Made by a program: the position numbers and the translations under genes
Notes under the pieces: model-generated
What the model was told of the DNA's origin: nothing
Database searches by the model: none
Seen by the model: the letters and a program-made list of their open reading frames with translations, nothing else
Assembly: GCA_017513005.1 (NCBI GenBank)
Contig: JAFWDM010000117.1
Span: 1 to 44,658 of the forward strand
Reading direction: 5' to 3'
From: Lachnospiraceae bacterium
Lineage (GTDB): Bacteria > Bacillota > Clostridia > Lachnospirales > Lachnospiraceae
DNA length: 44,658 nucleotides
Shown: piece by piece, positions 1,461-40,338 of the stretch
How positions within the stretch are numbered: position 1 is the first letter of the stretch
How the letters are laid out: every line of letters starts with the position of its first letter

Positions 1461-1550
1461 AAGTCGTGGGGCGTCCGTAGATCGCCAAAAAGCCGCGGAT
1501 TCTCCACGGATCATCACAAAGAAGTCGTGGAACACCCACGGATCATCACA
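1461..1550 (+). repeat. Degenerate ~32-bp tandem repeat, about 3 units
   Basis: CCACGGATCATCACA occurs at 1504-1518 and 1536-1550, exactly 32 bases apart. AAGTCGTGG occurs at 1461 and 1522, and a more diverged unit precedes them. The array lies in the transcribed leader between promoter and riboswitch. Confidence 0.75.
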
Positions 1551-1562
1551 GGAGTTTTAAAA

Positions 1563-1650
1563 ACGGGGAGCTGGTGGAAACCGGCTGAGAGGAAGCTGTT
1601 TTTTGCTTCGACCCGGAACCTGATTTGGATAATGCCAACGTAGGGAAACA
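1563..1650 (+). ncRNA. TPP riboswitch (Thi-box)
   Basis: The conserved Thi-box elements are present in order: GGGGAGCTGG, then CTGAGAGGAAGC, then GACCCGGAACCTGATTTGG and ATAATGCCAACGTAGGGAA. It is followed by a terminator hairpin, and the downstream genes are all thiamine genes. It should repress thiD-thiW-thiE/M when thiamine pyrophosphate is high. Confidence 0.96.
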
Positions 1651-1664
1651 TAGTCCGTGAATAG

Positions 1665-1696
1665 CGGGATACCCCATGCTGGTATCCCGTTTTTTT
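1665..1696 (+). terminator. Terminator of the TPP riboswitch expression platform
   Basis: Perfect 9-bp stem CGGGATACC (1665-1673) / GGTATCCCG (1681-1689), 7-base loop, then seven T residues (1690-1696). It sits 15 bases after the aptamer, so it is the likely attenuation site. Confidence 0.92.
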
Positions 1697-1712
1697 ATCA
1701 GGTTCTGCGTTA

Positions 1713-1845
1713 CTCTGCAGAGAACTGCATCTACGAAAAACGTATTTGCAGAAGAAGTATCTGCAGAAAAGCACTCTGCAGAAAAACTGCATCTGCAGAA
1801 AAAGCACTCTGCAGAAAAACTGCATCTGCAGAAAAAGCAATGGTG
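1713..1845 (+). repeat. TCTGCAGAAAA tandem repeats in the thiD leader
   Basis: TCTGCAGA is repeated many times. The clearest part is a 33-bp unit (GCACTCTGCAGAAAAACTGC...) present twice in a row, flanked by diverged copies. It lies between the riboswitch terminator and thiD, so it is transcribed only on read-through. The 8-bp core is self-complementary. Confidence 0.85.
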
Positions 1846-1949
1846 TGCAAGCGGCAGACCGGGGGCACCACCTTCTGCCGCTATAGAAAAGTAATGCAAA
1901 AGGGACCTCGATCCCTGCGGGGATCTGATTTTGAAAGGAGGCATAGTAT

Positions 1950-2744: not shown

Positions 2745-2849
2745 TATCTCCACGCAGATCCGGTCCTTTGCTGCTGCTCCTGCAGCTATTACACATTGCC
2801 CGGGCGGGAAATACATATTCCCGGGCAGGTATTCTGAAGGAGACGAATC

Positions 2850-3416
2850 ATGAGTGATACGAATACAAATATGACAGCCGGCAGAAGAAATACAGGCGCA
2901 AGGGCGGAGGCCGCTGCCGGTGTGCAGACCAGAAAACTGGCACTTACGGCGGTTTTTGCCGCCGTGGCTGTAGTGGGATCGATGTTTTCCTTCCCGATCT
3001 TCGGTTCCAAGTGCGCACCGGTGCAGCACATGGTAAATGTGCTCTGTGCCGTGATCCTGGGACCTGCCTGGAGTCTGGCGGCGGCGTTTATCGCCAGCCT
3101 GATCCGGAACCTGGTCGGTCTGGGAACGCCTCTGGCTTTCCCGGGCAGCATGTGCGGCGCTCTGCTCGCAGGGCTTCTTTACAGGTGGTTAAAAGTCCTT
3201 CCGGCCGCATGGGTCGGTGAGGTGTTCGGCACCGCTGTGATCGGCGGCATGCTCGCATACCCGATCGCCTCCCTGGTGATGGGAAACAGTACTGCAGCCC
3301 TGTTTACCTTTGTGGTCCCGTTTCTCATCAGTACGGTCGGAGGAACCCTGATCGCGGCGGTGATCACACTGGGTCTGCAGAACAGGGGTGTGCTGGGACG
3401 TCTCATGGAGGAATGA
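2850..3416 (+). CDS. thiW: ThiW, ECF transporter S component for the thiamine thiazole
   Basis: This 188-residue integral membrane protein is the substrate-binding S component that, with shared ECF ATPases and EcfT (not in this window), imports hydroxyethylthiazole. After a polar N-terminus of about 28 residues, RKLALTAVFAAVAVVGSMFSF starts the first membrane segment. FPIFGSKCAPVQHMVNV is the characteristic ThiW segment, and further hydrophobic helices run to the C-terminus. AAGGAGA precedes the ATG. It is flanked by thiD and thiE-thiM under one TPP riboswitch, which supports the assignment. The last 19 codons and the stop are duplicated just downstream. Confidence 0.93.
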   Translation: MSDTNTNMTAGRRNTGARAEAAAGVQTRKLALTAVFAAVAVVGSMFSFPIFGSKCAPVQHMVNVLCAVILGPAWSLAAAFIASLIRNLVGLGTPLAFPGSMCGALLAGLLYRWLKVLPAAWVGEVFGTAVIGGMLAYPIASLVMGNSTAALFTFVVPFLISTVGGTLIAAVITLGLQNRGVLGRLMEE

Positions 3417-3498
3417 GAAGACTGGAACACTTTTTGTGATCACACTGGGTCTGCAGAACAGGGGTGTGCTGGCACGTCTCATGGAGGAATGAGAAGAC
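3360..3498 (+). repeat. 76-bp tandem duplication spanning the thiW stop codon
   Basis: Bases 3360-3422 (end of thiW with its TGA) recur at 3436-3498 with one mismatch in 63, a shift of 76 bp. The second copy lies outside the gene and has no start. The near identity points to a recent event. Confidence 0.95.
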
Positions 3499-3584
3499 CT
3501 GCGCCTTTTTGCGGGCACCCTGTGTGCCCGGCCTGCCGGCCTCTCATGGAAGAATAAGCATGAGAGAGTGAGAGTGGGAAAGTA

Positions 3585-3652
3585 ATAAGAAGAGTACTAA
3601 GAATAGAAGGGTACTAAGAATAGAAAAGTACTAAGAACAGAAGGGTACGAAG
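3585..3652 (+). repeat. 17-bp tandem repeat in front of thiE
   Basis: Three full units (3602-3618, 3619-3635, 3636-3652) of the type AATAGAAGGGTACTAAG, preceded by a partial one. The purine-rich unit ends 12 bases before the thiE ATG, and GAAGAGGAAGAAG adjoins it. The array therefore sets the ribosome-binding region. Confidence 0.9.
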
Positions 3653-3664
3653 AGGAAGAAGAAA

Positions 3665-5260
3665 ATGCAGCTGAAACTGGAACATTGCCTGCTTTACGCA
3701 GTCACGGACACATCCTGGCTCCGCGGCCGGACGCTGGCCCGGCAGGTGGAGGAGGCCCTGCGGGGCGGTGCCACGATGGTGCAGCTCCGGGAAAAGAAAC
3801 TGACCGGAGATGCGCTGGAGCAGGAGGCCCGAGAGATCCTGGCGCTGTGCAGGCGATACGATGTGCCGCTTCTGATCAATGATGACGTGCTTCTGGCAAA
3901 GAAGATCGGTGCGGACGGCGTCCATGTGGGACAGAGCGACATGGCGGCGGCCCAGGCGCGCAGTATCCTCGGGCCGGACGCGATCATCGGAGTCACGGCG
4001 CGCACAGTGGAGCAGGCGCGGGCGGCGGAGGCGGCCGGGGCGGACTATCTGGGAAGCGGTGCCGTTTTCGGGACTTCGACGAAAAAAGACGCAAAGCCCC
4101 TGGATCCTGCCTGTTTTCAGGAGATCTGTGAGAGTGTCTCGATCCCGGTCACTGCGATCGGCGGGATCACTCTGGAGAATATCCGGCAGCTGAAGGGGCG
4201 GGGGATGCGCGGCTTCGCGATCGTCAGCGGGATCTTCGCCGCGGACGATATAGAAGCGCAGACGGGGAAACTCTGGAAGGCGGCGCAGTCGCTGTGTGTG
4301 AATGACGACGAGAATGTCAGCGGCTTGTTTATGAACCGGATCCGGACGGCCAGACCGGTGGTCCAGTGCATCACGAATATCGTGACGGTCAATGACTGCG
4401 CGAACGCCCTGCTTGCCGTCGGGGCCTCCCCCACCATGGCCCACCATCCCCGGGAGATGGAGGATTTCGCCCGGGTCACGGACGCCCTGGTCTGCAATAT
4501 GGGCGCGACAGAGTCTCTGGAGGCGATGCTGCTCGCTGCGCCGGAAGCGGCGAAAAGAGGCCATCCGGTCGTGATCGACCCCGTGGGCTGCGCCGCATCG
4601 GCCTTCCGCAGGGAGAAGGTCCTGGAGCTTGTGGATGCTCTGCATGCAGCATCTGCCGCAGGTTCTTCCGGTACAGGCTGCAGGGATGATGCTTGTTCTT
4701 CCGATACAGGGTGCACAGACGGCACTTGTTCTTCCGACGCAGGCTGCACGGACGCTGCTTGTTCTTCCGGTGGCTGCACGGAGGGCACGCCCGGGGGAAG
4801 AGGTACTTCCCTTTGCATCCGCGGGAATGCGGCGGAGATCCGGGCTCTGGTGGAGCATCACAACACGGGACGCGGCGTGGACGACTTCCATGATCTGCCG
4901 GAGACAGGAGAGGATCCGGACGTCGATCCGATCCGCTATGCCGTCCGGCTGGCGCGTGACACCGGAGCCATTGTGGTGCAATCCGGCGAAACAGACTATA
5001 TCACAGACGGCCGCCGGCTCTATACTGTCCATGGCGGCTCTGCATGGATGGCCAGGGTCACGGGGACCGGCTGTATGCTCAGCTCCCTTCTCGGCGCCTT
5101 TCTCTGCGTGGAAAACTCGGCGCTGGCGGCGGCTGCATGCTGCCGCTTCATGAATGCCTGCGCGGAGCAGGCCGCAGCGGCGGCAGCCCGGGAAGGCGGA
5201 GGGTCCGGAACCTTCCACATCCGGCTGCTGGATGCCCTCTCCGGTCCGGTCGGTCTGTAA
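3665..5260 (+). CDS. thiE-thiM: Bifunctional thiamine-phosphate synthase / hydroxyethylthiazole kinase (ThiE-ThiM fusion) with a Cys-rich repeat insert
   Basis: Residues 1 to about 218 are ThiE, which joins HMP-PP to thiazole phosphate: MVQLREKKL, LLINDDVLLAKKIGADGVH, a YLGSGAVFGTSTKKDA segment and the AIGGI phosphate site. Residues from about 222 to 531 are ThiM, the thiazole kinase: PVVQCITNIVTVNDCANALLA, VVIDPVGC, CIRGNAAEIRAL and the C-terminal catalytic GTGCMLSS near residue 467. The domain order is the same as in the bifunctional fungal Thi6 enzymes. Unusually, about 40 residues (334-371) between VVIDPVGC and CIRGNAAEI are an 11-residue repeat (SSDTGCTDGTC type), encoded by a 33-bp tandem array absent from normal ThiM. 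The reading frame is intact. Thiamine synthesis here appears to be salvage only, with no thiC or thiG seen. Confidence 0.94.
   Translation: MQLKLEHCLLYAVTDTSWLRGRTLARQVEEALRGGATMVQLREKKLTGDALEQEAREILALCRRYDVPLLINDDVLLAKKIGADGVHVGQSDMAAAQARSILGPDAIIGVTARTVEQARAAEAAGADYLGSGAVFGTSTKKDAKPLDPACFQEICESVSIPVTAIGGITLENIRQLKGRGMRGFAIVSGIFAADDIEAQTGKLWKAAQSLCVNDDENVSGLFMNRIRTARPVVQCITNIVTVNDCANALLAVGASPTMAHHPREMEDFARVTDALVCNMGATESLEAMLLAAPEAAKRGHPVVIDPVGCAASAFRREKVLELVDALHAASAAGSSGTGCRDDACSSDTGCTDGTCSSDAGCTDAACSSGGCTEGTPGGRGTSLCIRGNAAEIRALVEHHNTGRGVDDFHDLPETGEDPDVDPIRYAVRLARDTGAIVVQSGETDYITDGRRLYTVHGGSAWMARVTGTGCMLSSLLGAFLCVENSALAAAACCRFMNACAEQAAAAAAREGGGSGTFHIRLLDALSGPVGL
4664..4777 (+). repeat. 33-bp in-frame tandem array inside the ThiM domain
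   Basis: Units at 4664-4696, 4697-4729, 4730-4762 and a partial 4763-4777 all begin TCTTCC and encode SS-x-x-GC-x-x-x-x-C. Because the unit is a multiple of three, gain or loss of a unit keeps the frame. Confidence 0.95.
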
Positions 5261-5366
5261 GGGCACAAGGCAATGCAGGGATACCTGTTTGCTGCTGCTT
5301 TTGGCAGGGCAGCCCGCCGATACAGGGATAAACATTTGTCATTGCTTCAGTTTTGAGAGAGAACAG

Positions 5367-7322
5367 GTGCAGAGAGTGCGGAAGGATGAAAAAAAACAGA
5401 GGTTTCCGACGAACCGGAGCCTGATTCTGTACTTCCTGCGGGGAAGTGTTTTTTATTTTGTCACGGGGGCAGTCTGCGCATGTCTGGTCGCCCTGTTCGA
5501 CCTGGTCATCCCCCGTATGACCCAGTATACGGTGGATGCGGTGATCGGCGGCGACCTCTCCTCGGTGCCCGGCTGGGCGGCCGGGCTGATCGGACGCCTG
5601 GGGGGTGCGGCCTATCTGCGTGAACATCTGTGGCTGACGGCCCTGGCGGTCGCGGCGGCGGCCGGGCTGGGGGCGGTGAGCCGGTACGGTTTCCGGGTCA
5701 GTAATGCGAAGGGGGCAGAGGCCTTTGTCCGCAGGACGAGGGACCGGCTCTACCGGCATATTCTGTCCCTGCCCTATTCCTGGCAGGGGGAAAACAGCAC
5801 CGGCGACACGATCCAGCGGTGTACATCGGATGTCGAGACGATCAAGATCTTTGTCTCGGAGCAGCTCACCTCCCTTCTGCGGGTCTTTATCCTGATCTTT
5901 ATGTCCCTGTATTTCATGGTGACGATCCAGCCGAAGCTGACAGCTGCGGCTGCTGTTTTTATTCCGATCATGATCATCAGTTCCCTTGTCTTCTACGGCC
6001 TGATCGGAGATGAGTTCGAAAAGGTGGACAGTGAAGAGGGCCGGCTTTCGGCGATCGCGCAGGAGAACCTGACAGGTGTCCGCGTAGTCCGCACCTTTGG
6101 CAGGGAAAAATTCGAACGGGAGCGGTTTGAAGCGCAGAACGAGTTCTACACCGACCACTGGTACCGGCTGATGCGGGTGCTGGCGGCCTTCTGGGTCTCC
6201 GGCAATATTATTGCCACGGTCCGGAACATGACCGTCGCGGTCTACGGAGCGGTCCTGTGTGTGCATGATCAGCTCACGGCGGGCGGACTCATCGCCTTCT
6301 TGTCCTATAATGCGCTGATGTCTCTGCCGGTGCGGAGCATCGGACGGATCATCGCGGATATGTCGAAGACCGGCGTCTCGATGGAGCGTCTGCGCTACAT
6401 CATGAATGCCGTGCCGGAAGAGGACATTCGCAGTCCTGTCACAGGACCGGATACCGGTGCTCTGTCTGCACCTCCCATGAACCGCGATATCGTTTTTTCA
6501 CACGTTTATTTCCGCTATGGCGAAGAGGCACCGGAGATCCTGCGGGATATCAATATGACGATCCGGGCAGGGACAACGGTCGGGATCCTGGGCGCGACCG
6601 GAGCCGGCAAATCGACCCTGATGCTGCTCCTGGACAGATTGTGGGAACTGCCGCCGGAGTGGGGCACGATCACGTTCGGCGGGGTCGATATCCGCCGGAT
6701 CGACCGCGCATGGCTCCGGCAGAACATCGGTATGGTGCTGCAGGAGCCCTATCTCTTTTCCCGTACGCTGGCGGAAAATATCGCGATCGCGATGCCGGAG
6801 AAGGCTTCCGCCCCGGCGAAAGGCCTTTCTGCCCCGGCGAAAAGTTCTTCCAGCCCGAAGAAAGATTTTTCCGCCCCGGCGAAAACAGACCCTGCAGGCA
6901 CATACCGCATGCGGGAGATCCGGCGCGCCGCGCAGACCGCCTGCCTGGAGGAGGCCATCGACCATTTTGCGGATGGATACGACACCTTCGTGGGCGAGCG
7001 GGGCGTGACGCTTTCCGGAGGGCAGAAGCAGCGCGCCGCCATCGCCCAGATGCTGGTGCGGCGCACGCCGATCATGATCTTTGATGACTCCCTGTCAGCG
7101 GTGGATGCGGAGACAGACGCCCGGATCCGTCACGCGCTGCAGCACAATACGGCGGACGCGACTGTGATCCTGATCGCCCACCGCATCACGACCCTGCAGC
7201 ATGCGGACGAGATCTTCGTGCTCGACGGCGGGACGATCGCCGAACACGGGACGCACGCACAGCTCCTCGCGCAGGGCGGGATCTACAGCCGGGTATATGC
7301 CCTGCAGACCGGTTCGGAATGA
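5367..7322 (+). CDS. ABC exporter half-transporter (membrane domain + ATPase), probable degenerate-site partner
   Basis: A 651-residue type I ABC exporter half. About six membrane segments occupy residues 15-310, then comes the ATPase domain: Walker A GATGAGKSTL (409-418), Q-loop VLQEPYLFSRTL, signature LSGGQKQRAA (about 549), Walker B IMIFDDSLSAVD (about 569) and H-loop IAHRIT. The residue after Walker B is Asp (FDD), not the usual catalytic Glu, as in the degenerate subunit of LmrC/BmrC-type heterodimers. Its partner is the next gene. A seven-residue repeat (KGLSAPA type, residues 479-511) is inserted between Q-loop and signature. The start is uncertain: I chose GTG 5367 because an upstream extension would overlap thiM in another frame; GTG 5376 is also possible. 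The substrate is unknown. Confidence 0.9.
   Translation: MQRVRKDEKKQRFPTNRSLILYFLRGSVFYFVTGAVCACLVALFDLVIPRMTQYTVDAVIGGDLSSVPGWAAGLIGRLGGAAYLREHLWLTALAVAAAAGLGAVSRYGFRVSNAKGAEAFVRRTRDRLYRHILSLPYSWQGENSTGDTIQRCTSDVETIKIFVSEQLTSLLRVFILIFMSLYFMVTIQPKLTAAAAVFIPIMIISSLVFYGLIGDEFEKVDSEEGRLSAIAQENLTGVRVVRTFGREKFERERFEAQNEFYTDHWYRLMRVLAAFWVSGNIIATVRNMTVAVYGAVLCVHDQLTAGGLIAFLSYNALMSLPVRSIGRIIADMSKTGVSMERLRYIMNAVPEEDIRSPVTGPDTGALSAPPMNRDIVFSHVYFRYGEEAPEILRDINMTIRAGTTVGILGATGAGKSTLMLLLDRLWELPPEWGTITFGGVDIRRIDRAWLRQNIGMVLQEPYLFSRTLAENIAIAMPEKASAPAKGLSAPAKSSSSPKKDFSAPAKTDPAGTYRMREIRRAAQTACLEEAIDHFADGYDTFVGERGVTLSGGQKQRAAIAQMLVRRTPIMIFDDSLSAVDAETDARIRHALQHNTADATVILIAHRITTLQHADEIFVLDGGTIAEHGTHAQLLAQGGIYSRVYALQTGSE
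6801..6899 (+). repeat. 21-bp in-frame tandem array in the ABC ATPase domain
   Basis: Successive seven-codon units at 6819-6839, 6840-6860 and 6861-6881, with partial units on both sides, encode Lys-x-x-Ser-x-Pro-Ala/Lys. The array falls in the helical subdomain region between Q-loop and signature. Confidence 0.9.
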
Positions 7323-7388
7323 GTAAAGACAGAGCAAGTCCCGGTGTACATTCCGGCGGGAAAAGAGTTTCCGGGTAAGAGCGGCATT

Positions 7389-7476
7389 CGGCGGGAGAAG
7401 GAGCACGGGAACGAAGCGGGCACATCCGGCGGGAGAAGGAGCACGGGAACGAAGCGGGCACATCCAGTGGGAGAAG
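7389..7476 (+). repeat. 38-bp tandem repeat before the second ABC gene
   Basis: CGGCGGGAGAAGGAGCACGG begins the unit at 7389 and again at 7427, and the 38-bp copies are identical. A partial third unit starts at 7465. Each unit carries GAGAAGGAG, a ribosome-binding-like stretch. Confidence 0.93.
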
Positions 7477-7505
7477 GCTGATCCCTGCACGCACAGAGGC
7501 TTTTT

Positions 7506-9390: not shown

Positions 9391-9475
9391 TCAGGTCCTG
9401 CGCAGGCGGGTGCGCGGACCAGGTGCGACGGACCCGTGCCGGGATGTGGAGGCTCAGATCCTGCGCAGGCGGGTG
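9391..9475 (-). repeat. 63-bp-offset duplication of the CYTH gene's stop region
   Basis: The last codons and stop of the CYTH gene (TCAGATCCTGCGCAGGCGGG, 9454 onward on the plus strand) recur at 9391-9412 with one mismatch in 22. The copy lies just downstream of the gene in its reading direction. Confidence 0.85.
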
Positions 9476-10017: not shown

Positions 10018-10139
10018 AAAGCGTCTGCCTCCTTCCCGGCGTGTGTTTTTCGCACTTCTGATTTCCATCTGAATTTTTCCATCTGAATTCAGGTGCATTG
10101 TAACATCGGACGGCAGGAGAAGCAATTGCCGCCTGCAGG

Positions 10140-10335
10140 GAAGTCCTGAAAAAGTAAGCGTTGAAATAAGGAAGCACTGAAAAAAGGAATACGAAAAAGA
10201 GAATACAGAAAAGGCGGCTGCTGAAAATGGACTGCCGGAAAAACAAGTGTTGACGAAGAGAGTTCTGAAGAAGAGGCTGCCGACGAAAGAGCGCCGAAAA
10301 AGAGGCTGCCGAAGAAGGGAGTAGGAAAAAAGAAT
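10140..10335 (+). repeat. Degenerate purine-rich repeats before the DUF1624-like gene
   Basis: Motifs of the type GAGGCTGCCGA(C/A)GAA and CTGAAAAA recur with drift, e.g. around 10271 and 10311. No gene is credible here on either strand, although the minus frame stays open. The run ends in GAAGGGAGTAGG before the next start. Confidence 0.65.
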
Positions 10336-12156: not shown

Positions 12157-12186
12157 ATAGTTAAGAAGTTTTTTGAAGGAAATCAA

Positions 12187-12226
12187 GACAGGAAGAGACA
12201 TAGTTAGACAGGAAGAGGCATAGTAA
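12187..12226 (+). repeat. 20-bp duplication of the ribosome-binding region
   Basis: GACAGGAAGAGACATAGTTA (12187-12206) is followed directly by GACAGGAAGAGGCATAGTAA (12207-12226). The second copy runs into the A of the start codon, so the Shine-Dalgarno-like AGGAAGAG is present twice, 20 bases apart. Confidence 0.93.
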
Positions 12227-15200: not shown

Positions 15201-16125
15201 GGAAGCCCTCAAGACCGGTATCGCCCGGCTCGACGGCGGCATGCAGCAACTCTATGCGGCCCTGTATACAGGCACAGAGGACGCGGAAGGAAATGCGGTT
15301 CCCGCGCTCAACGATGTACTGAAGACCCTTGCCGGAAAGAACGCTGTCATCAATGAGAGCGTCACGGCTCTGCAGGACGGCGCCGGACAGATCGCCGGCG
15401 GAATCGATGCGGCTGATGCCGGATCCGAAGAGCTCAAAGCGGGCATCAAGTCCTATACGGACGGCGTCACCTCTCTCAGCACCGGCGCAGACAGTCTGGC
15501 TGCCGGCATGACGCAGGCGCAGCAGGGAGCGGCACAGCTCGGCGGGGGCCTGCAGAGCTACCTGGACGGCACTTCCCGGCTGCAGACCGGTGCAGCGCAG
15601 CTGGCAGCCGGCACCGCGAAGCTCCACAGCAATTCCGCGGAGCTCACGAAGGGGGCATCTACTCTTGCGGAGGGGACAAAGACCCTCAGCGCGGGTGCGG
15701 CGGGGGCCGGCGAGGGCGCAAAGACCCTGGCAGCCGGCATCGGAAAGTACCTGGACGGGGCGCAGGAACTCCAAAAGGGCACGAAGACTCTGGCGGAGGG
15801 CACGTCGACCCTGCGCAGCAACTCCGGTAAGCTCAACGACGGGACAGATAAGCTCGTCGACGGTGTGAAGGAATTCGTCGACGGCATGCAGGAGATGCTC
15901 GACGGCGTCATCGAACTCAATGACGGGGTCATCGAGTTCCGCGACGACGGTATCCGCAGGATGGCGGACATCTACAGGACCAACATCCGGGCCCTGGACG
16001 ACAGCCTGATGGAGATCAAGGAGGCCTCCCGCACCTACACCACCTTCAGCGGAGCGCCCACGGACATGGATAGCAGCGTCAGATTCATCATCAAGACGGA
16101 CGGCATTGAGGCGGAAGAGGACTGA
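12226..16125 (+). CDS. Large secreted repeat protein of YhgE/Pip type
   Basis: The 1299-residue protein starts with a clear signal peptide (MKRKQVLALLLTVTLLAGSN, cut near residues 20-30). An N-terminal domain of about 300 residues carries YYLDGKEIAAKDLAGKSGKV. Two blocks of X-L-x-x-G-A repeats (DGAQQLAAGAKKLTD, LAAGAAQLQTGAKSL) lie at about 335-545 and 1045-1235. They resemble the extracellular helical repeats of YhgE/Pip (phage infection protein) and related membrane proteins. Between them, residues about 600-960 form an Ala/Lys/Asp-rich region likely to be coiled coil. The C-terminus ends in RTYTTFSGAPTDMDSSVRFI without the membrane helices found in YhgE, so it is probably released or held by partners. 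A role at the cell surface or in transport is inferred from the TetR gene before and membrane gene after. Confidence 0.8.
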   Translation: MKRKQVLALLLTVTLLAGSNMTAVTSLAAQNAAAAAAHTAAAAASSQKTAAEAETSDTLEKAISDAVSQVSGAEKEETVYIFTDANGTQHDITVSNWLKNPDKKDRLQDYSVLQEIENVKGDETFDKSGESIVWNADGNDIYYQGTTTRQPPVSEKITYYLDGKEIAAKDLAGKSGKVRIRIDYTNHIKYKNVYVPFAAVTGMAFSSDTASNIKVDNGSVVSEGKNTMVVGMAFPGLQDSLKTAQTQSREIVDKMGDDIEAADRQKALDRINDLDIPGSVEITMDATDFKMSTCLTMVFSAHLDDEDEADLDENHKDVFDEMDETVSKLESDGDELADGTQKLVDGVQEAKDGTGELYDGVKDLRDGVQEYTGGVEKADDGAQQLAAGAKKLTDKNDTIRSGAGELKDGAGKLAAGAAQLQTGAKSLSDGVTAYTQGVDAADAGAQQLAAGAKELTDNNDKLADGAKTLSDGAQELAGGAAALQAGAKELADNNEALNGGISSLVTGTKTLGAGARALQTGLDTLGDGLSVYTGAVASAAEALDGKKESVGQLRDGLDAMADADSAQSLPAYVDGVDQLIDTVSGVSAVMPPLSEAASKVSEGIKSLTSQINALGSGVEAAAKAAKTAAEDAGTAAGHAGTAASDAEDLIGKAQEAKKTVADAADLAQAVIDTAGGAKAEADKASKAASDAASAAEGAKKTAQDGTKEAVSSIGDAAAALDGIGDPIGEVEKLSEDNSGGKVSGDADTDIDSRLHDDVRSAVKDEVRDRLKGVDGLSEEEISSIASAAADAAAEAVGSKAGDEVEKKVSAKAEEANAVIDDKNGQLAEIHDKAHSASGKVESAQKGLSDAKGDVEKAGEKAADAAGSLQTAADDMQKAADGASSKAADTVKKAQGLEKAAGAAKDLSLQDLKDGADRLGDDKDTLQKDAQKIASDAQAIGEAGEKLGSDETKQQMKDLKDGAETVSSWLSILSGRLGSEEAKASLDQLRAGGEALKTGIARLDGGMQQLYAALYTGTEDAEGNAVPALNDVLKTLAGKNAVINESVTALQDGAGQIAGGIDAADAGSEELKAGIKSYTDGVTSLSTGADSLAAGMTQAQQGAAQLGGGLQSYLDGTSRLQTGAAQLAAGTAKLHSNSAELTKGASTLAEGTKTLSAGAAGAGEGAKTLAAGIGKYLDGAQELQKGTKTLAEGTSTLRSNSGKLNDGTDKLVDGVKEFVDGMQEMLDGVIELNDGVIEFRDDGIRRMADIYRTNIRALDDSLMEIKEASRTYTTFSGAPTDMDSSVRFIIKTDGIEAEED

Positions 16126-16200
16126 AGTGAGGCAGGCAGGTACTATGAAAATGTACACAGGACTGAAGTGAGGTGAGCGGGTACTATGAATACGCACACA
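16118..16200 (+). repeat. 41-bp tandem duplication spanning one gene's stop and the next gene's start
   Basis: AGGACTGAAGTGAGG occurs at 16118 and 16159, and the GGTACTATGAA-x-A(C/T)G(C/T)ACACAGGACT part follows in both. The upstream copy holds the real stop (TGA) of the repeat protein; the downstream copy holds the real ATG (16186) of the membrane protein. Confidence 0.93.
16145..16171 (+). other. Eight-codon mini-ORF made by the duplicated start
   Basis: The upstream copy has ATG (16145) with the same GGTACT spacing as the real start and reads MKMYTGLK then TGA. The true protein begins MNTHTGLM. It ends 14 bases before the real ATG, so it could act as a leader cistron; nothing shows that it is translated. 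Confidence 0.45.
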
Positions 16201-16761
16201 GGACTTATGTTATTGATTTCTCTGGCGCTGGCCTTCGGCATCTACGGGGTCGTTGTACAGCGCGGCGCCAACCTGGTCAGAATCGACAGCGCCACCGTGA
16301 TGATGGCGGCGATCTGGGGAGGCCTGGAGCTGGCAGCTTCCTTTCTGGGGTTCGGATGCGGCAGCATGCTGCTGCAGTTTGAAGTATCCAGGGAGCGGAA
16401 CCTTTTCTGGATCCACCTCCTGGCGGGCCTGATCTTCGCCGCGATCGGCATCCGCATGCTCTGCACGGCGTTTGCGAAAAAGTCCTTTTTGGAGCACCGC
16501 ATGGAGAAGGTGAATATCCGCGAGGATGTCCGCCTGTCCCTGCGGCTGTGCATCCACGGCTTTTTTGCGGGCATAGCCTGCGGCCTCCTCAAGTTCCGGC
16601 TCGTGCCCCTGCTCATGACCGTCTTTGTAGTCTCCGCCGCCTTTGCCGCAGCGGGCTACATCTCCGGCCGCGCCTGGGGCGCCGAACCCTGCAGCAAGGC
16701 CTATGCCATCGGCGGGAGCATGCTCTGCGCCCTCAGCATCGCCCTGCAGCTGATCCTGTGA
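16186..16761 (+). CDS. MntP/YtaF-like polytopic membrane protein
   Basis: The 191-residue protein has about six hydrophobic segments in two similar halves. The first (LLISLALAFGIYGVVVQRGA ... VMMAAIWGGLELAASFLGFGCG) and second (LRLCIHGFFAGIACGLL ... VSAAFAAAGYISGRAWG) follow the layout of the MntP manganese efflux/YtaF family. The family's usual acidic residue in helix 1 is not obvious (LALAFGIYG), so metal transport is uncertain. GTGAGCGGGT precedes the ATG. It probably shares a transcript with the secreted repeat protein. Confidence 0.65.
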   Translation: MNTHTGLMLLISLALAFGIYGVVVQRGANLVRIDSATVMMAAIWGGLELAASFLGFGCGSMLLQFEVSRERNLFWIHLLAGLIFAAIGIRMLCTAFAKKSFLEHRMEKVNIREDVRLSLRLCIHGFFAGIACGLLKFRLVPLLMTVFVVSAAFAAAGYISGRAWGAEPCSKAYAIGGSMLCALSIALQLIL

Positions 16762-23831: not shown

Positions 23832-23891
23832 GATCAGTCTAATACAGGCTTGATCAGTCTAATACAGGCTTGATCAGTCAAATACAGGCTT
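23832..23891 (-). repeat. 20-bp triplication of the phosphoglucomutase gene end
   Basis: Three consecutive units of GATCAGTCTAATACAGGCTT type at 23832, 23852 and 23872. The third is the true end of the gene (codons KPVFD and stop). The other two follow the stop in the reading direction and differ at one base. Confidence 0.95.
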
Positions 23892-26019: not shown

Positions 26020-27567
26020 ATGAAGGCAAAGACGTATCATGAATGGTTCCTGCAGAAGCAGGAGAAACTGGAAGCGGAACTTGCCGCGCAGGGCGAGGGA
26101 CCCGGCGCAGATCTGTCCGTGGAGGTCATACGCTATTCGCATTTGAAAAACTATATTCTCTCAGGAGAGAGCAAACCCGATATCCTGGTCGCCTGTGATG
26201 ACGACGGGGAGCTTTCCGGCTGTGCGCTCCGCCTGATCCGGGATTATTTTGCGACGCATCCCAGGGTAAACATGCTCTACGGGGACGAGGACCTGGTTAC
26301 GGAGGGGATCCATCTGAGTCCCTGGTTCAAGGCGGATTGGTCGCCGGATACGTTTTTGTCGACTTTCTATTTCGGGAGCATTTTTGCCCTGCGCACTACC
26401 GCCCTGGGCCTGATCAATCCCGGGAGACGCACGGCGAAGGAGTTCGAGCCGGAATCCCGGATCCTGGAGGATGAGGCGGAGGAGCGGGAGGCGAAGTGGA
26501 CGGAACCGGATATCGCGCTCCGCTCCTGGATCTACGGCAAGCTCTGCCTGAAGGTCGCGCAGGCGGACGGCGGTTTCTCCAGACGCCGCGGCGAAGCGAT
26601 GCCTGTCGGGCATATCTCCGAGGTCCTGTTTCATGCGTCGAAAAAACCGGAGACCTGGGATGCGGACCTGATCCGCGATTCCCTGACAGGGCGCTACAAC
26701 AGGGAATCCGCTCATTCGAGAGTGATCAGCATCATCATTCCCAGCAAGGACAATCCCGCCCTGCTCGAGAGATGCGTGCACTCGGTCATGGAGTATGTGC
26801 GTGTGCCCTATGAGCTGATCATCGTGGACAACGGGAGCAGCGCTCCCAACCGCAGCCGGACCCAGGCTCTGGTCGATGAGGTCAACGCCGGCGATATGTC
26901 AGCCGTCTATCTCTACAAGGAGATGCCCTTCAATATGGCCCGCATGAACAATATGGGCGCGGCAGCCGCGAACGGGGAGATGCTGCTGTTCCTGCACGAT
27001 GATGTCGTCGTGCAGAAGCTGGGCTGGCTCTCCCACCTGTCCGAAAAGGCCAAGCTCCCCTACGTGGGCGCGGTCGGCATGAAGCTTCTCTATCCGAACT
27101 CGAACGTCATCCAGCACGCGGGAATCATGTCCGTCGCTGACGGCCCGGTCTATAAGCTGCAGTACCGCACCAATGATGAGGTCTGGCACTTTGGCTTCAA
27201 CAAGGGCGTGCGCAACGTCCTCGCCATCTCGGGAGCCTGCATCATGGTCCGCAGGGAGGTGTTCGGCGAGGTCGGCGGGTTTGATGAGAATAATTTCCCG
27301 GACTGCTTCACGAATGTGGATTTCTGCTACCGTGTGTTTGAAAAAGGCTACTACAATGTAGTGCGTAACAACATGTACCTCTATTATTATGATCCGGTCT
27401 CCAGCGAGAACCTGCAGACCCTTGAGCAGCGGGAGAAGAACAGGCCGGTGGAGCTGGAGAAGCTCCGCAGTCTCCATCCCATGCTCGCCGGGACGGATCC
27501 CTTCTATCACAAATACCTGACCCAGGACACCGGAGAGACGAGATTTCTCCCGTCCCTGGAGCTGTGA
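26020..27567 (+). CDS. Family 2 glycosyltransferase
   Basis: The 515-residue protein carries a full GT2 domain from about residue 233: VISIIIPSKDNPALLERCVHSV, LIIVDNGSS, NMARMNNMGAAAANGEMLLFLHDDV (DxD-like metal site HDD) and GFDENNFPDCFTNVDFCYR, the family's acceptor loop. Residues about 50-140 look like a second, incomplete GT2 half (DILVACDDDGELSG, MLYGDEDLV, HLSPWFKADWSPDTFLSTFY). That arrangement is known from large rhamnosyl/galactosyl transferases building surface glycans. No membrane helices are apparent. AGGAG lies 11 bases upstream. Acceptor and sugar are not predictable. Confidence 0.92.
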   Translation: MKAKTYHEWFLQKQEKLEAELAAQGEGPGADLSVEVIRYSHLKNYILSGESKPDILVACDDDGELSGCALRLIRDYFATHPRVNMLYGDEDLVTEGIHLSPWFKADWSPDTFLSTFYFGSIFALRTTALGLINPGRRTAKEFEPESRILEDEAEEREAKWTEPDIALRSWIYGKLCLKVAQADGGFSRRRGEAMPVGHISEVLFHASKKPETWDADLIRDSLTGRYNRESAHSRVISIIIPSKDNPALLERCVHSVMEYVRVPYELIIVDNGSSAPNRSRTQALVDEVNAGDMSAVYLYKEMPFNMARMNNMGAAAANGEMLLFLHDDVVVQKLGWLSHLSEKAKLPYVGAVGMKLLYPNSNVIQHAGIMSVADGPVYKLQYRTNDEVWHFGFNKGVRNVLAISGACIMVRREVFGEVGGFDENNFPDCFTNVDFCYRVFEKGYYNVVRNNMYLYYYDPVSSENLQTLEQREKNRPVELEKLRSLHPMLAGTDPFYHKYLTQDTGETRFLPSLEL

Positions 27568-27636
27568 CGATCAGTCCGTCCACAGACATACCGGTTCCGG
27601 TTCAGTGGCGGACTTTAGTCCCTGGAGCTGTGACGA
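27552..27636 (+). repeat. 66-bp-offset duplication of a glycosyltransferase gene's stop region
   Basis: GTCCCTGGAGCTGTGACGA, which includes the TGA of the preceding gene, is at 27552-27570 and again at 27618-27636. The second copy is outside any gene. Confidence 0.85.
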
Positions 27637-27741
27637 GCAGGGACCGCGGCGAAGAATTTGTACGACCTGTCTGCCTGATTGCGGATATGCTCTGCGGGAG
27701 GATCCCGCATCCGGCTTGCGCAGTTTAGAACGAGGTGTTCC

Positions 27742-29170: not shown

Positions 29171-29207
29171 GTGACAAGAGGAGAGGCTCCCTTGTCACGT
29201 CTTTTTT
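29171..29207 (+). terminator. Terminator after the second glycosyltransferase
   Basis: GTGACAAGAGGAG pairs with CTCCCTTGTCAC, followed by GTC and TTTTTT. The arm ends resemble the GTGACAAA arms of the dispersed palindrome. Confidence 0.8.
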
Positions 29208-29210
29208 CTC

Positions 29211-29322
29211 CATCATCCGGGAGTCCGGCCGTTATCTCCATCATCCGGGAGTCCGGCCGTTATCTCCGGCTTTCAGGAGTCCGGCTGTTTTGTCCATCAT
29301 CCGGAAGCCCAACCATTTTCGC
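29211..29322 (+). repeat. 28-bp tandem repeat, four units
   Basis: Units at 29211-29238, 29239-29266 (identical, CATCATCCGGGAGTCCGGCC...), 29267-29294 and 29295-29322 (diverged) are joined without spacers. The array fills the space between the terminator and the RBS (GAGG, 29327) of the next gene. Confidence 0.95.
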
Positions 29323-31392: not shown

Positions 31393-31440
31393 GGTGCGGC
31401 GGGGCGGATCTGGCGGCTGCAAAATGCCGGAACAAACGGC

Positions 31441-31527
31441 GCTGCTGCCGGACATCTGTGGATATTTGTCCGTCTCCGGGAGCCGGCCCGCAGATACGGG
31501 AGCTGCTGCCGGACATCTGTGGATATT
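31441..31527 (+). repeat. 61-bp-offset direct repeat before the flavin reductase gene
   Basis: Twenty-six identical bases starting GCTGCTGCCGGACATCTGTG lie at 31441-31466 and 31502-31527. The second ends about 24 bases before the next start codon. Confidence 0.9.
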
Positions 31528-32204: not shown

Positions 32205-32290
32205 GCATCCACCCGGATGTTCCGGGCTGCAGATACATACTTCCTGCAGATACATACTTATTGATTTATACATCTTGATTTATACCTCGA
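32205..32290 (+). repeat. Short direct repeats before murA
   Basis: GCAGATACATACTT occurs twice (about 32229 and 32246), and TTGATTTATAC twice in the next 30 bases. The rest of the 200-bp gap between flavin reductase and murA is featureless. Confidence 0.65.
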
Positions 32291-33758: not shown

Positions 33759-33778
33759 ACACATGAACAGAATACTGA

Positions 33779-33895
33779 GTTCTTCGGGGCAGGGCGAAAT
33801 TCCCTACCGGCGGTATAGTCCGCGAACCTACGGGCCGATTTGGTGAGATTCCAAAACCGACAGTATAGTCTGGATGAGAGAAGAATGAAAACGCA
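33779..33895 (+). ncRNA. FMN riboswitch (RFN element)
   Basis: All conserved blocks are present: TTCTTCGGGGCAGGGCGAAA, TTCCCTACCGGCGGTATAGT, CCGCGA, GGCCGATTTGGTGAGATTCC, CGACAGTATAGTCTGGATGA and GAGAAGAA. The terminal TTCTTC/GAAGAA helix closes the aptamer. It controls the riboflavin transporter gene downstream. Confidence 0.97.
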
Positions 33896-35395: not shown

Positions 35396-35538
35396 GCGCG
35401 GCAGCAGGCGTGGGTTTCATGCAAAGCACGCGGATGTTTTTGCAAACAGCTGGTCATGGAACTGAAGGACAGTCATTCAGCATGAACCGGAGGATCCAGG
35501 ATCTGTCAACAGAGGACCTGTTGGCAGATCTTTTCTGT

Positions 35539-35655
35539 GTATCGGGAAAAAAGCTGTATCGGGAAAAAAGCTGTATCGGGAAAAAAGCTGTATCGGGAAA
35601 AAGCTGTATCGGACAAAAGCTGTATCAGATAAAAAGATATATCGGAAAACAGATA
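35539..35655 (+). repeat. 16-17-bp tandem repeat before tsaE, about seven units
   Basis: GTATCGGGAAAAAAGCT is repeated three times at 17 bp, then in 16-bp and more diverged forms (one A lost, then substitutions) up to ATATCGGAAAACAG. The gradient from exact to diverged units is clear. It fills most of the rpiB-tsaE gap (35396-35684) and ends 30 bases before the tsaE start. Confidence 0.95.
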
Positions 35656-35684
35656 AAGGAGTTTCTGACAGAGGAAAAGAAAAC

Positions 35685-36125: not shown

Positions 36126-36261
36126 AGGCAGGGGCATCTCATCTGTACCGGAGCGGTATACAGTTTTTTGCAGGCGTACCGGCGGCACACGGCAGAACCG
36201 CCTGATCCTGCCGGCTTCGTTCCGGATTGACATTTCAGAAAGATAATGATAGCTTTTTCAT

Positions 36262-36368
36262 TACTGCCCGCGGCTTTCCGCGGCTTCCTATAATACTGCC
36301 CGTAATACTGCCCGGAAAATGCGGTCTGAGAAAACCGCCCGGTAGACACTGCCCGATAATACTGCCTG
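36262..36368 (+). repeat. TAATACTGCCCG-type short repeats before tsaB
   Basis: ACTGCC(C/T)G occurs five times (about 36263, 36294, 36307, 36348 and 36361), three of them preceded by TAAT. They are irregularly spaced, with CCGC-rich inserts between. The remaining part of the tsaE-tsaB gap shows nothing else. Confidence 0.7.
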
Positions 36369-36381
36369 ATGGAGAACACAG

Positions 36382-37128: not shown

Positions 37129-37160
37129 GGACCACAAAAGGAATCTGAGAACGATCTGTT

Positions 37161-37733
37161 ATGTCAATCTATATACGCCGGATGCGGGAGGAGGATATCC
37201 CGCAGGTCGTGGAGATCGAGAATATCGCTTTCTCCAGACCCTGGTCTAAAAGCATTTTTAAAGCGGCCCTGCTCCTGCCGTATGCAGCCTACTATGTGGC
37301 TGTGGAGCAATCTGAAGACAAGCCGCAGGGGGGCATGACCGCCGCGCAAAAGCGATCTGAAGCCACAATACCGTGCGGCATCCCTGCCGCGCAAAATACC
37401 CTGAAAGACCTGCTTTCGGAAGGTGATCGCAAAAACGGTATCGGGGAAAAAATCGTGGGCATGTGCGGTGTGAAAAAAATCTTCGAAGAGGGCGACATCA
37501 GCAATGTCGCTGTCCACCCGGACTACCGCGGCAGAGGCATATCCAGACAGATGCTGGACATGCTGATGCGGGAGGCCCGCGAGGACGGTGTCACCGCCTT
37601 CACCCTCGAAGTCCGCGCCGGCAACCGGCCGGCGATCTGCCTCTATGAGAGCTATGGCTTCCGCACGGAAGGCATCCGCCCCCGTTTTTACGAGGATCCC
37701 GTGGAGGACGGCCTCGTCATGTGGCTGCGATAG
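37161..37733 (+). CDS. rimI: Ribosomal-protein-alanine N-acetyltransferase with a repeat insert
   Basis: RimI is a GNAT acetyltransferase acting on the N-terminus of ribosomal protein S18. The 190-residue protein has IRRMREEDIPQVVEIENIAF, then ISNVAVHPDYRGRGISRQMLDMLMREA with the acetyl-CoA loop (R-x-x-G-x-G/A form RGRGIS). FTLEVRAGNRPAICLYESYGFRTEGIRPRFY completes the fold. Usual length is about 150; the excess is an insert at residues 51-95 between two strands (YYVAVE and IVGMCGV), of which 30 residues are a 15-codon duplication. It stops with TAG. Neighbours tsaB and tsaD support the call. Confidence 0.93.
   Translation: MSIYIRRMREEDIPQVVEIENIAFSRPWSKSIFKAALLLPYAAYYVAVEQSEDKPQGGMTAAQKRSEATIPCGIPAAQNTLKDLLSEGDRKNGIGEKIVGMCGVKKIFEEGDISNVAVHPDYRGRGISRQMLDMLMREAREDGVTAFTLEVRAGNRPAICLYESYGFRTEGIRPRFYEDPVEDGLVMWLR
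37311..37400 (+). repeat. 45-bp in-frame duplication inside rimI
   Basis: TCTGAAG at 37311 and 37356 and CCGCGCAAAA at 37342 and 37387 show the 45-base offset. The units encode SEDKPQGGMTAAQKR and SEATIPCGIPAAQNT. Confidence 0.88.
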
Positions 37734-37881
37734 GGCCGTCGGGATATTCCGGCGCTGTTCCCGAAAAAACTGTCCGCCGTCATGAAAGACCCCGGACAGG
37801 ACCAACGGCCCGTATAGCAAATGCGGTCCTTTTCAAACGTTTATCGTCGCGGAAAACCTGAAAAATGGAGTCAATAAAACT

Positions 37882-38811
37882 ATGATCGATGTCTGTCTGC
37901 TTGGAACAGGAGGCATGATGCCGCTGCCTTACCGGTATCTCACGTCCCTGATGCTCCGATACAACGGCAAAGGAATACTTGTAGACTGCGGAGAGGGCAC
38001 CCAGGTCGCTCTGCGCAGGAGGGGCTGGAGCCCGAAACCGATCGATGTGATCCTGTTCACGCACTTCCACGCCGACCACATCTCCGGCCTGCCCGGCATG
38101 CTGCTCACCATGGGCAACGCGGAGCGGACCGAGCCCGTCCTGATGATCGGGCCCAAAGGGCTCGCCAGGATCGTGAACAGTCTGCGCGTCATTGCACCGG
38201 AGCTCCCTTTCGAGATCCGGTTTCTGGAGCTCTCGGAGCGGGAACAGCAGATCGACCTGCCCGGAGAAAAGGATTTTCACATCCATGCCTTCCGCGTCAA
38301 CCACAATGTTCCCTGCTACGGCTACGCCTTTTCGCTGGACCGCGCCGGGCGCTTCGACGCCGCCCGCGCACAGCAGCAGCAGATCCCTCTGAAGTTCTGG
38401 AGCCGCCTGCAGAAGGGCGAGACCATCGAGACGGAGGAGGGCACCCTCTACACGCCGGACATGGTCCTGGGGCCGCCCCGCAAGGGCTTAAAGCTCACCT
38501 ATACCACAGACACCCGGCCCTGCGAGAGCATCGTCAGATACGCGCAGGGGGCAGACCTCATGATCTGTGAAGGCATGTACGGGGAACCGGACAAGGCGGA
38601 AAAGGCCAGAGAACACAAACACATGACATTTACGGAGGCCGCTCTTCTGGCGAAAAAGGCAGGTCCCGCTGAACTGTGGCTGACCCATTACAGCCCTTCC
38701 CTGATCCACCCAGAGGACTATATGGACAGCGTCCGCAGGATCTTTCCGGCCTCCAGGGCTGCGAAGGACGGCAGGACAGTTACGCTTGCTTTTGAAAATG
38801 AGACAAAATAG
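37882..38811 (+). CDS. rnz: Ribonuclease Z
   Basis: RNase Z removes the 3' trailer from tRNA precursors. The 309-residue metallo-beta-lactamase protein has the metal motif FTHFHADHISGLPGML (about 58-73), GKGILVDCGEGTQVALRR before it, the FHIHAFRVNHNVPCYGY region with the third metal His, YTTDTRPCE and the late HKHMTF and LTHYSP motifs. It matches the short bacterial RNase Z form. It stops with TAG. It lies among the tsa genes, an arrangement that keeps tRNA maturation genes together. Confidence 0.95.
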   Translation: MIDVCLLGTGGMMPLPYRYLTSLMLRYNGKGILVDCGEGTQVALRRRGWSPKPIDVILFTHFHADHISGLPGMLLTMGNAERTEPVLMIGPKGLARIVNSLRVIAPELPFEIRFLELSEREQQIDLPGEKDFHIHAFRVNHNVPCYGYAFSLDRAGRFDAARAQQQQIPLKFWSRLQKGETIETEEGTLYTPDMVLGPPRKGLKLTYTTDTRPCESIVRYAQGADLMICEGMYGEPDKAEKAREHKHMTFTEAALLAKKAGPAELWLTHYSPSLIHPEDYMDSVRRIFPASRAAKDGRTVTLAFENETK

Positions 38812-38925
38812 GCGTTTCGCAGGATACCAGTGAGCCGGGTACCTGCAGCAAAACCTGCTGCAGGGAGGAGGAAAAGCAGCCGGCACATGACCGTGACTTC
38901 AGAGAACGGCCGTATAAACGTATAA

Positions 38926-38999
38926 AGATGCAGGCCGGGAGTATTCGACTATAAAGACTGTAAGATGCAGGCCGGGAGTATTCGACTATAAAGACTGTA
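38926..38999 (+). repeat. 37-bp tandem repeat before tsaD
   Basis: Two identical units at 38926-38962 and 38963-38999 (AGATGCAGGCCGGGAGTATT...), and the first bases of a third merge into the 15-bp array that follows. Confidence 0.95.
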
Positions 39000-39002
39000 A
39001 AA

Positions 39003-39186
39003 TGCAGGACATGGAAGATGCAGGACATGGATATGCAGAACAAAGATATGCAGGAAAAAGACCTGCAGGAAGAAGGCATGCAGAACAAAGAAATGCAGAA
39101 CAAAGGCATGCAGAATGAAGACATGCAGAACAAAGACATGCAGAACAAAGGCATGCAGAATGAAGACATGCAGGGAAAAGTTGTAC
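39003..39186 (+). repeat. 15-bp tandem array encoding the TsaD N-terminus
   Basis: About twelve units of ATGCAGAA(C/T)(A/G)AAGAC type. Each unit starts with an in-frame ATG and encodes MQNKD or a variant ([15 protein letters not shown]). Confidence 0.95.
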
Positions 39187-40214
39187 AGAGCAGGGAGGAC
39201 CGGATCACGATCCTTGCCATTGAATCCAGCTGCGACGAGACAGCGGCCTCGGTCGTCGTAAACGGCCGCAGCGTTCTTTCCAATGTGATCTCCTCCCAGA
39301 TCGATATTCATACCCTCTACGGCGGTGTGGTGCCTGAGATCGCCTCCCGGAAACACACGGAGCGCGTCACGCAGGTGATCCGCCAGGCTCTGCAGGAGGC
39401 AGGGAAGAAACTGGAGGAGATGGATGCCATCGCAGTTACCTACGGACCCGGTCTGGTGGGTCCTCTGCTGATCGGCGTGTCCGCCGCCAAAGGCCTGTGT
39501 TTCGCGACCGGCATCCCGCTCATCGGCGTACACCATATCGAGGGACATATCAGTGCGAACTATATCTCCAGCCCGGAGCTGGAGCCCCCCTTCGCCTGCC
39601 TCGTCGTCTCCGGCGGCCACACCCACCTGGTGCTTGTCCGGGACTACGGTGTTTACGAGATCCTCGGCAGGACCCAGGACGACGCAGCCGGAGAAGCCTT
39701 CGACAAAGTCGCCCGCGAGATCGGGCTGGGCTATCCCGGAGGCCCCAAGATCGACCTGGCCTCCCTGGAGGGTGATCCGCACGCCATCACCTTTCCCCGC
39801 GGGAAAGTCTCCGGTTCCAGGTATGACTTCAGCTTCAGCGGCATGAAATCCGCCGTCCTGAACTACCTCAATACCAGCCGGATGAAGGGCATCACCGTCA
39901 ATGTGCCCGATGTCGCCGCCTCCTTCCAGCAGGCGGTCGTGGATGTGCTCGTTTCTCATGCAGCCGATGCAGTGGACCAGTACGGACTTAAAAAGTTCGC
40001 CCTGGCAGGCGGCGTCGCCGCCAACACGGCCCTCCGCGCCGGCATGAGGCAGATGTGTGAAGAAAAGGGCGCGGCCTTCTACTGCCCGCCCCCCGTTCTG
40101 TGCACCGACAATGCCGCCATGATCGGCAGCGCAGCCTATTTTGAATACCGGAAGGGCGGTTTCTCCGGACTGGACCTCAACGCAGTCCCGGGACTGCGGC
40201 TGGGGCAGCGCTGA
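39018..40214 (+). CDS. tsaD: tRNA N6-threonylcarbamoyltransferase with a repeat N-terminal extension
   Basis: TsaD transfers threonylcarbamoyl to A37 of ANN-decoding tRNAs. From residue about 62 the protein is normal: [50 protein letters not shown], the metal site HHIEGH (about 171-176), [10 protein letters not shown] and [14 protein letters not shown]. The first 55-60 residues are a five-residue repeat ([15 protein letters not shown]) unlike any TsaD. Every repeat holds an in-frame ATG and none has a strong RBS, so translation could begin at several points; I give the first long one. A start at ATG 39171 ([11 protein letters not shown]) would give a normal-length protein. Confidence 0.93.
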
Positions 40215-40230
40215 CGAAAAAAGGAGGACC

Positions 40231-40338
40231 TGTATGGCATACGCTGTTGATGAAAGCAGACAGAGACCTGACAGCTGCCTGTCTGAGATGACAGGCCATT
40301 GTATGGCACACCCTGTTGATGAAAACAGACAGAAACCC
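40231..40338 (+). repeat. 69-bp in-frame duplication of the ispD start
   Basis: TGTATGGCATACGCTGTTGA (40231) and TGTATGGCACACCCTGTTGA (40300) are the same sequence with a few changes and continue alike for about 35 bases, offset 69 = 23 codons. Both contain an ATG in frame; only the first has the AGGAGG. Confidence 0.9.

Follow-up and report, generated by a model that had tools for sequence, protein, structure and literature searches.

The stretch examined here raises the question of why ordinary bacterial genes should be accompanied by so many short tandem duplications. It is contig JAFWDM010000117.1 (44,658 nucleotides, called the window at its full length), one contig of a 2.68-Mb, 130-contig Lachnospiraceae genome (GCA_017513005.1; the own genome). 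Its genes are ordinary and comprise thiamine genes, ABC transporters, glycosyltransferases, and those for MurA, TsaE, TsaB, RimI, RNase Z, TsaD, IspD, and DnaE. A first-pass annotation of the letters had listed 19 duplications and suspected a peculiarity of replication or repair. The excess is not local to the window, and we lean, with some reserve, towards the reading that one Lachnospiraceae clade has a net rate (gain minus loss) of local tandem duplication above that of its sister lineages.

Array density in the window, its genome, and its relatives

Tandem Repeats Finder (TRF) returned 36 rows at a score of at least 40 in the window. With the settings used throughout (period 9–200, score ≥50, overlapping calls merged), 19 arrays were obtained in 44.7 kb, compared with 3 in 30 dinucleotide shuffles of the window together (mean 0.1); 9 arrays were exact, compared with 0 in 10 shuffles. 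Two of the 19, at 13345–13688 and 15854–15906, were absent from the earlier list and lie within a single coiled-coil heptad-repeat protein (TIGR03057); they are ordinary and no evidence of slippage. The listed positions held up well, as 18 of 19 carry a direct duplication: 12 are TRF arrays at the above threshold (1713, 3585, 4664, 6801, 7389, 12187, 16118, 23832, 29211, 35539, 38926, and 39003), and six are decayed or interrupted duplications (1461, 3360, 27552, 31441, 37311, and 40231). Position 9391 is weak, and a search aimed at duplications found none there.

The window was set in a genus sample of 30 genomes, one per species, with up to 20 kb taken from each of 1–5 contigs per genome; the own genome was represented by 20 other contigs plus the window. 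All densities refer to these sampled contigs, not to whole genomes. The genomes were grouped by TsaD identity to the own genome into clade (≥90%, 10 genomes, 748 kb), mid (80–83%, 10 genomes, 320 kb), and far (<80%, 10 genomes, 507 kb). In a TsaD tree of 39 sequences, the ten clade genomes form one side of a branch with a support of 100/100. One further relative (G011), whose partial TsaD match was 88% identical, was left out of the TsaD tree and the density sample. The nearest named relatives are Lachnospiraceae metagenome-assembled genomes (MAGs), several with RUG names, presumably for rumen uncultured genome, and the clade is probably rumen-dwelling; NK3A20 and Marseille-P6806 are more distant. 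The closest of the clade pairs compared is 86% identical over tsaD. G008 and G011 had been considered as a near-strain pair, but their pieces are just 75–95% identical, too far apart for copy numbers to be compared.

The window holds 42.6 arrays/100 kb, the own genome without it 30.6, and the own genome overall 32.3. The clade carries 239 arrays, or 32/100 kb (31.7 in the nine genomes besides the own), compared with 11.9 in the mid and 9.3 in the far group (10 clade versus 20 other genomes, Mann-Whitney p = 0.0007, kinship not corrected). Across 80 Lachnospiraceae loci centered on TsaD, including three clade loci, the mean was 9.4/100 kb. Elsewhere in the order, 11 genomes from other families gave 2.5–30, the highest (G039) being 30 in 20 kb, and two 50-kb pieces of Escherichia coli K-12 yielded 1 array in total (1/100 kb). 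The annotation had proposed comparison with related genomes as its own refutation test; on that test the clade stands above most relatives, but its range overlaps theirs, and individual genomes from other families approach it.

Exact copies, spacers, and protein insertions

Exact arrays are taken to be young, and their density was 9.9/100 kb in the clade, 1.25 in the mid group, and 1.77 in the far group, an enrichment of 5.6–8-fold over the clade as a whole. The window had 20.2/100 kb and the other nine clade genomes pooled 12.6. Young duplications thus exceed those of the sister lineages, though not in every genome of the clade, and the own genome is poorer in them than the window. The excess is clearest for copies within 100 bp: exact tandem copies with a period of ≤100 bp reached 5.75/100 kb in the clade (mid 0.63, far 0.79), and spaced copies within 100 bp reached 2.41 (mid 1.25, far 0.2). 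Copies 301–2000 bp apart numbered 12 in the clade (1.6/100 kb), 48 in the far group (9.5), and 1 in the mid group (0.3).

No sequence motif clearly unites the units. Over 147 clade intergenic arrays, the best of 1479 hexamers had p = 3.4e-5 (~0.05 corrected), and no 5-mer survived correction; five 7-mers with a zero background count, each found once, were set aside. A shared motif was accordingly rejected in this k-mer test, and the annotation's view that the units lack a common sequence is broadly true. At the junctions of 31 exact two-copy intergenic pairs, 21 show 0–2 bp of identity, as random joins would give. Hairpin-prone sites were also considered as a cause and rejected on ordinary folding energy.

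In coding sequences (CDS), 86 of 89 clade arrays have a period divisible by 3, compared with 45 of 150 elsewhere. The same holds outside the clade (49 of 52 CDS arrays), and every exact CDS array with a period of at least 12 keeps the frame (19/19). This bias, present within and outside the clade, is therefore attributable to ordinary selection, and it also indicates that the arrays exist in the DNA and were not produced by assembly.

Most clade arrays lie between genes, with densities of 100/100 kb outside CDS and 15 within, compared with 29 and 7 outside the clade. Pooled coding fraction was 0.80 for the clade versus 0.86 for the other genomes (medians by genome 0.79 and 0.87), according to a simple in-house gene caller that gives occasional odd values, such as 0.59 for G054. 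By the same gene calls, codirectional gaps had a median of 146 bp in the clade versus 63 bp outside, and those of ≤20 bp made up 10% versus 31%. Orthologous gaps in the murA-dnaE region, compared as clade medians against four mid loci, were longer in the clade for rimI-rnz (143 versus 17), rnz-tsaD (190 versus 23), tsaD-ispD (192 versus 38), tsaE-tsaB (77 versus 16), tsaB-rimI (46 versus 34), and ispD-dnaE (354 versus 209). The far-group rimI-rnz and rnz-tsaD gaps, of hundreds of bases, were left out of this comparison.

Matching gaps differ in sequence and arrays between species, as seen among the window, L091, and L092 and in two gaps of G008 versus G011. At the tsaD end of L092, a 44-bp array unit starts with the last codons of tsaD itself. 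Among the 44 clade pairs listed at tsaD, 35 have a longest alignment of ≤1.05 kb, about the gene length; two mid pairs of similar identity (82.6 and 85.6%) align across 3.5 and 4.0 kb. The annotation had seen a grading from exact to decayed copies, as if units keep arising. Both kinds do coexist, and the different arrays in matching gaps are as expected on that idea. Its claim that arrays cluster at ribosome-binding sites was not supported: among the 96 clade arrays found in codirectional gaps, 40 lie closer to the start and 56 closer to the stop.

Core enzymes of the clade carry extra segments, with species-specific insertions in RimI and PolA. In RimI, a site between conserved stretches measures 15–231 bp in ten clade members and 21–51 bp in four mid loci. 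Of 31 far loci, 28 have 6 bp at this site; the other three are L104 (96), L126 (27), and L133 (9). The inserted sequence varies between clade species and is often repetitive; judging from the alignment and solved RimI relatives, it would form a surface loop. L104 is Marseille-P6806, which lies outside the clade, has a record without a MAG mark, and carries the same kind of insertion. DNA polymerase I has 934–1022 residues in eight clade species versus 909–937 in five others, and its middle part 165–232 versus 146–178; the extra middle sequence occurs in most, not all, clade members and to some extent in G016 and G058. For segments of at least 5 residues in reciprocal protein pairs, the clade protein had the extra segment in all 8 cases when paired with mid (8:0; 35 pairs, p = 0.008) and in 8 of 10 when paired with far (8:2; 24 pairs, p = 0.11); the mid versus far control gave 3:4 (26 pairs).

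SbcD matches are split around profile positions 107–174 in G044, G009, G010, G068, G071, G011, and G014; the break is absent in G000, G008, G042, and G053. It suggests an insertion in this nuclease.

Explanations for the excess

The clade combines an excess of local copies, no clear motif, and filtering for reading frame with lengthened spacers and protein pairs biased towards insertion. On the reading that we lean towards, stretches of ~10–80 bp would be duplicated in tandem or at distances within 100 bp, the nascent strand probably misaligning or switching template within one short single-stranded stretch; misalignment within ~100 bp would agree with the short range and the missing motif. 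New pairs would expand into arrays through ordinary slippage, and point mutations would later erode them. Out-of-frame events in genes would be purged by selection while in-frame insertions stay (RimI, PolA), and intergenic spacers would grow with little filtering.

Several observations weigh against this reading. The own genome outside the window has just 4.0 exact arrays/100 kb (11 in 274 kb), and exact arrays are uneven among clade members, at 0–1.3/100 kb in G053, G009, and G071 versus 14–25 in G008, G044, G042, and G010. Two genomes of other families, with 40 kb sampled from each, reach 10 (G034) and 7.5 (G036), the 11 other-family genomes pooled giving 3.0. Total densities per genome overlap as well (clade 5.9–55.6, others 0–24.7 arrays/100 kb): clade members G014 (5.9) and G071 (11.8) are ordinary by TRF in samples of just 17 and 8.5 kb, and relatives G049 (24.7) and G069 (20.0) fall within the clade range. 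The clade also counts as a single evolutionary unit. Other Lachnospiraceae loci are dense over 11–14 kb (L135, 53; L141, 42; L136, 35/100 kb), and the trait may have more than one origin. Copies 301–2000 bp apart are commoner in the clade than in the mid group, locality being clear only against the far group. Sites showed no hairpin excess (folding energy, p = 0.31). Junction identity of at least 4 bp occurs in 10 of 31 intergenic and 10 of 16 CDS pairs, compared with 2.3% in simulations on intergenic DNA; the duplication set looks mixed, part arising without need for homology and part perhaps reflecting slippage at short repeats or a vestigial third copy. For murA-ECF, the clade has the shorter gap (125 versus 353; n = 7 versus 3), and whole protein lengths in the same reciprocal pairs show no significant difference.

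We infer that gain rather than slower loss raised the net rate, although slower loss could stand in for faster gain. The excess of exact copies favors gain or active turnover, and the scarcity of exact arrays elsewhere in the own genome favors slow loss there. The uneven exact counts and the distance comparison with the mid group weaken our confidence in the main reading and in the mutator state considered below; they lend weight to slow loss and, slightly, to an assembly artifact. Gain might then be ordinary and removal weak, through less purifying selection or fewer repeat deletions, so that arrays and long spacers accumulate. Generally long spacers, a low coding fraction, and the commonness of decayed arrays agree with this, and the own genome outside the window, with its few exact arrays among 30.6 TRF arrays/100 kb, looks as slow loss would make it; the enrichment of young arrays across the clade as a whole speaks against it, and we regard it as possible, on the doubtful side. 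Selection could instead retain arrays as contingency loci, copy-number changes tuning expression or protein loops. Some regulatory positions would suit such a role, namely the interval between the thiamine pyrophosphate (TPP) aptamer and thiD and the ATG-bearing units 5′ of tsaD. Arrays are nevertheless spread over the pooled sample of the own genome, occur at housekeeping genes, vary between species in matching gaps, and do not prefer gene starts over ends, which makes this account improbable.

Assembly artifacts of metagenome bins have to be considered because clade members G053, G010, and G071 are MAGs. The unbroken frame of exact CDS arrays, the many decayed copies, the lack of an excess in most sister genomes, known MAGs included, and the RimI insertion of Marseille-P6806 leave such an origin very improbable. 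Spread of the units by a small mobile or repetitive element family is barely credible, in line with the annotation's view that a mobile element is unlikely. Repeats 301–2000 bp apart are commoner than in the mid group, as such a family might produce, but they are rarer than in the far group, no k-mer is clearly common to the units, and the L092 unit derives from the adjoining gene end. At dispersed sites we did not find the alike units expected of a REP- or MITE-like family, the best hexamer standing at the borderline value given above.

A raised net rate of local duplication could have a heritable basis. We regard it as possible, on the doubtful side, that a change in replication or repair was fixed in the clade as a lasting, duplication-specific mutator state, with constantly raised 10–80-bp tandem duplication, in at least 10 species, that lengthened spacers and added loops to core enzymes, including DNA polymerase I. 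Among the repair genes searched (RecA, PolA 5′-nuclease, MutS-type, RecJ, SbcD, XseA, and Ku), no causal gene was found, which also weighs against the proposed rate change. RecA is present in 5 of 5 clade genomes examined; MutS-type genes, RecJ (in G014 in pieces below the cut-off), and SbcD in 10 of 10; and XseA in 8 of 10, with no match in G042 and G068 (82 and 90% complete). The PolA 5′-nuclease domain was matched in 9 of 10 genomes and is retained in the eight aligned clade PolA proteins. Clade loss of PolA 5′-nuclease, MutS-type, RecJ, SbcD, or XseA was rejected, with single misses at most. Ku-type end joining was likewise rejected, Ku being absent from the 10 clade genomes and from all 61 genomes searched. 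A repair gene missing from the affected clade only was thus not seen, though gene presence is no proof of function. The replication or repair peculiarity suspected in the annotation is conjectural; the genes searched, Ku apart, are present in the clade.

Flap-endonuclease defects (rad27 or the PolA 5′-nuclease) are short-duplication mutators and would yield motif-free short tandem duplications; the clade differs in retaining the PolA domain. Genome size plasticity of Ehrlichia ruminantium was reportedly described by Collins in 2005 and Frutos in 2006. In the excerpted account consulted for that species, intergenic regions are long, ~64% of the genome is coding, and non-coding tandem repeats actively expand and contract (PMC10710844). 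As in that excerpt, our sampled contigs show many intergenic repeats across the genome together with expanded spacers and a lower coding fraction. Unlike the species described there, the clade has genomes of 2.4–4.2 Mb, a coding fraction of ~0.8 (by in-house gene calls) rather than ~0.64, and insertions inside housekeeping enzymes; the likeness rests on sequence from one genome per species. The clade also resembles bacterial satellites and variable-number tandem-repeat loci in having arrays in and between genes. In the excerpt of a prokaryote satellite survey, most satellite families have unit lengths divisible by 3, and satellites form families of related units (PMC6749651); the clade units, by contrast, look unrelated, and the feature is their clade-wide density. 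E. ruminantium is the closest precedent; new here are the clade-wide extent, the occurrence in gut Firmicutes, the insertions in housekeeping enzymes, and the close sister lineages available for comparison. A literature search on Lachnospiraceae or insertion bias, within a limited paper collection, returned nothing on repeats of this clade.

Bacterial genomes are usually thought to be deletion-leaning and compact. For lengths of tens of base pairs, this clade seems to tip the balance the opposite way, in enzyme loops and housekeeping operons alike, and the excess suggests that its cells make, or fail to remove, short duplications unusually often. With close sisters at hand, it offers a natural comparison for identifying the enzymatic step that limits such duplications and for observing how protein loops and spacers arise.

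Features of the window

The duplications of the window are collected in Table 1.

Table 1. Positions and surroundings of duplications in the window
Feature	Position	Strand	Context
Decayed 32-nt repeat, 2 full copies, 72%	1458..1544	+	Directly 5′ of TPP riboswitch aptamer
33-bp ×4 array	1712..1839	+	Between TPP aptamer (1554-1663) and thiD (1950)
Interrupted duplication, 45 nt copied at 76 bp, 98%	3360..3498	+	Across thiW 3′ end
17/34-bp array	3588..3653	+	Ends 11 bp 5′ of thiE-thiM gene
In-frame 33-bp array	4662..4782	+	Within ThiM part of ThiE-ThiM fusion
In-frame 21-bp array	6805..6885	+	Within ABC transporter, at break in NCBIfam matches
38-bp ×2.4 near-exact array	7385..7477	+	Separates two ABC transporter genes
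Weak 13-bp ×1.9 repeat, TRF score 45	9409-9434		Nearest thing to listed position 9391
Cluster of 13-29-bp arrays	10062..10321	+	Single region called intergenic
20-bp ×2 array	12186..12224	+	Immediately 5′ of open reading frame (ORF) start
21/41-bp arrays	16093..16205	+	Span gene end and start of next gene (Mntp-family)
20-bp ×3.2 array	23832..23895	+	Between convergent genes, overlaps one gene end
23-nt duplication at 66-bp spacing, 96%	27552..27640	+	Across glycosyltransferase gene end
28-bp ×3.5 array	29207..29304	+	Upstream of glycosyltransferase
29-nt duplication at 61-bp spacing, 97%	31438..31527	+	Intergenic
17-bp ×1.9 array, 100% match	32227..32259	+	Upstream of murA
17-bp ×6.7 array	35538..35649	+	Upstream of tsaE; copies exact on 5′ side, decayed on 3′ side
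12-bp ×2 exact duplication	36291..36314	+	Upstream of tsaB
Decayed 45-bp duplication, ×2, 71%	37306..37395	+	In rimI, inside species-specific insertion between two conserved stretches
37-bp ×2.3 then 15-bp ×10 arrays	38925..39173	+	5′ of tsaD; in-frame ATG in most 15-bp units extends ORF
38-nt duplication at 69-bp spacing, 89%	40231..40337	+	ispD start

The TPP riboswitch 5′ of thiD is flanked by repeat arrays on both sides. The 15-bp array 5′ of tsaD reads as MQNK(D/E/G)-like repeats in one open frame at 39002–39203, and with an ATG in most units, translation of tsaD could begin from several alternative start points. A flavin mononucleotide (FMN) riboswitch lies at 33776–33889, 5′ of an ECF transporter gene.

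In dnaE (PolIII α, PHP domain), an in-frame TAG at 41310–41312 splits the gene after 65 codons into ORFs at 41115–41312 and 41319–44648. Candidate causes are a genuine nonsense mutation, a variant strain within the bin, and an error in the consensus. At 42035–42050 of the same gene, L091 and L093 are longer than the window by roughly 125–140 bp, another species-specific length difference.

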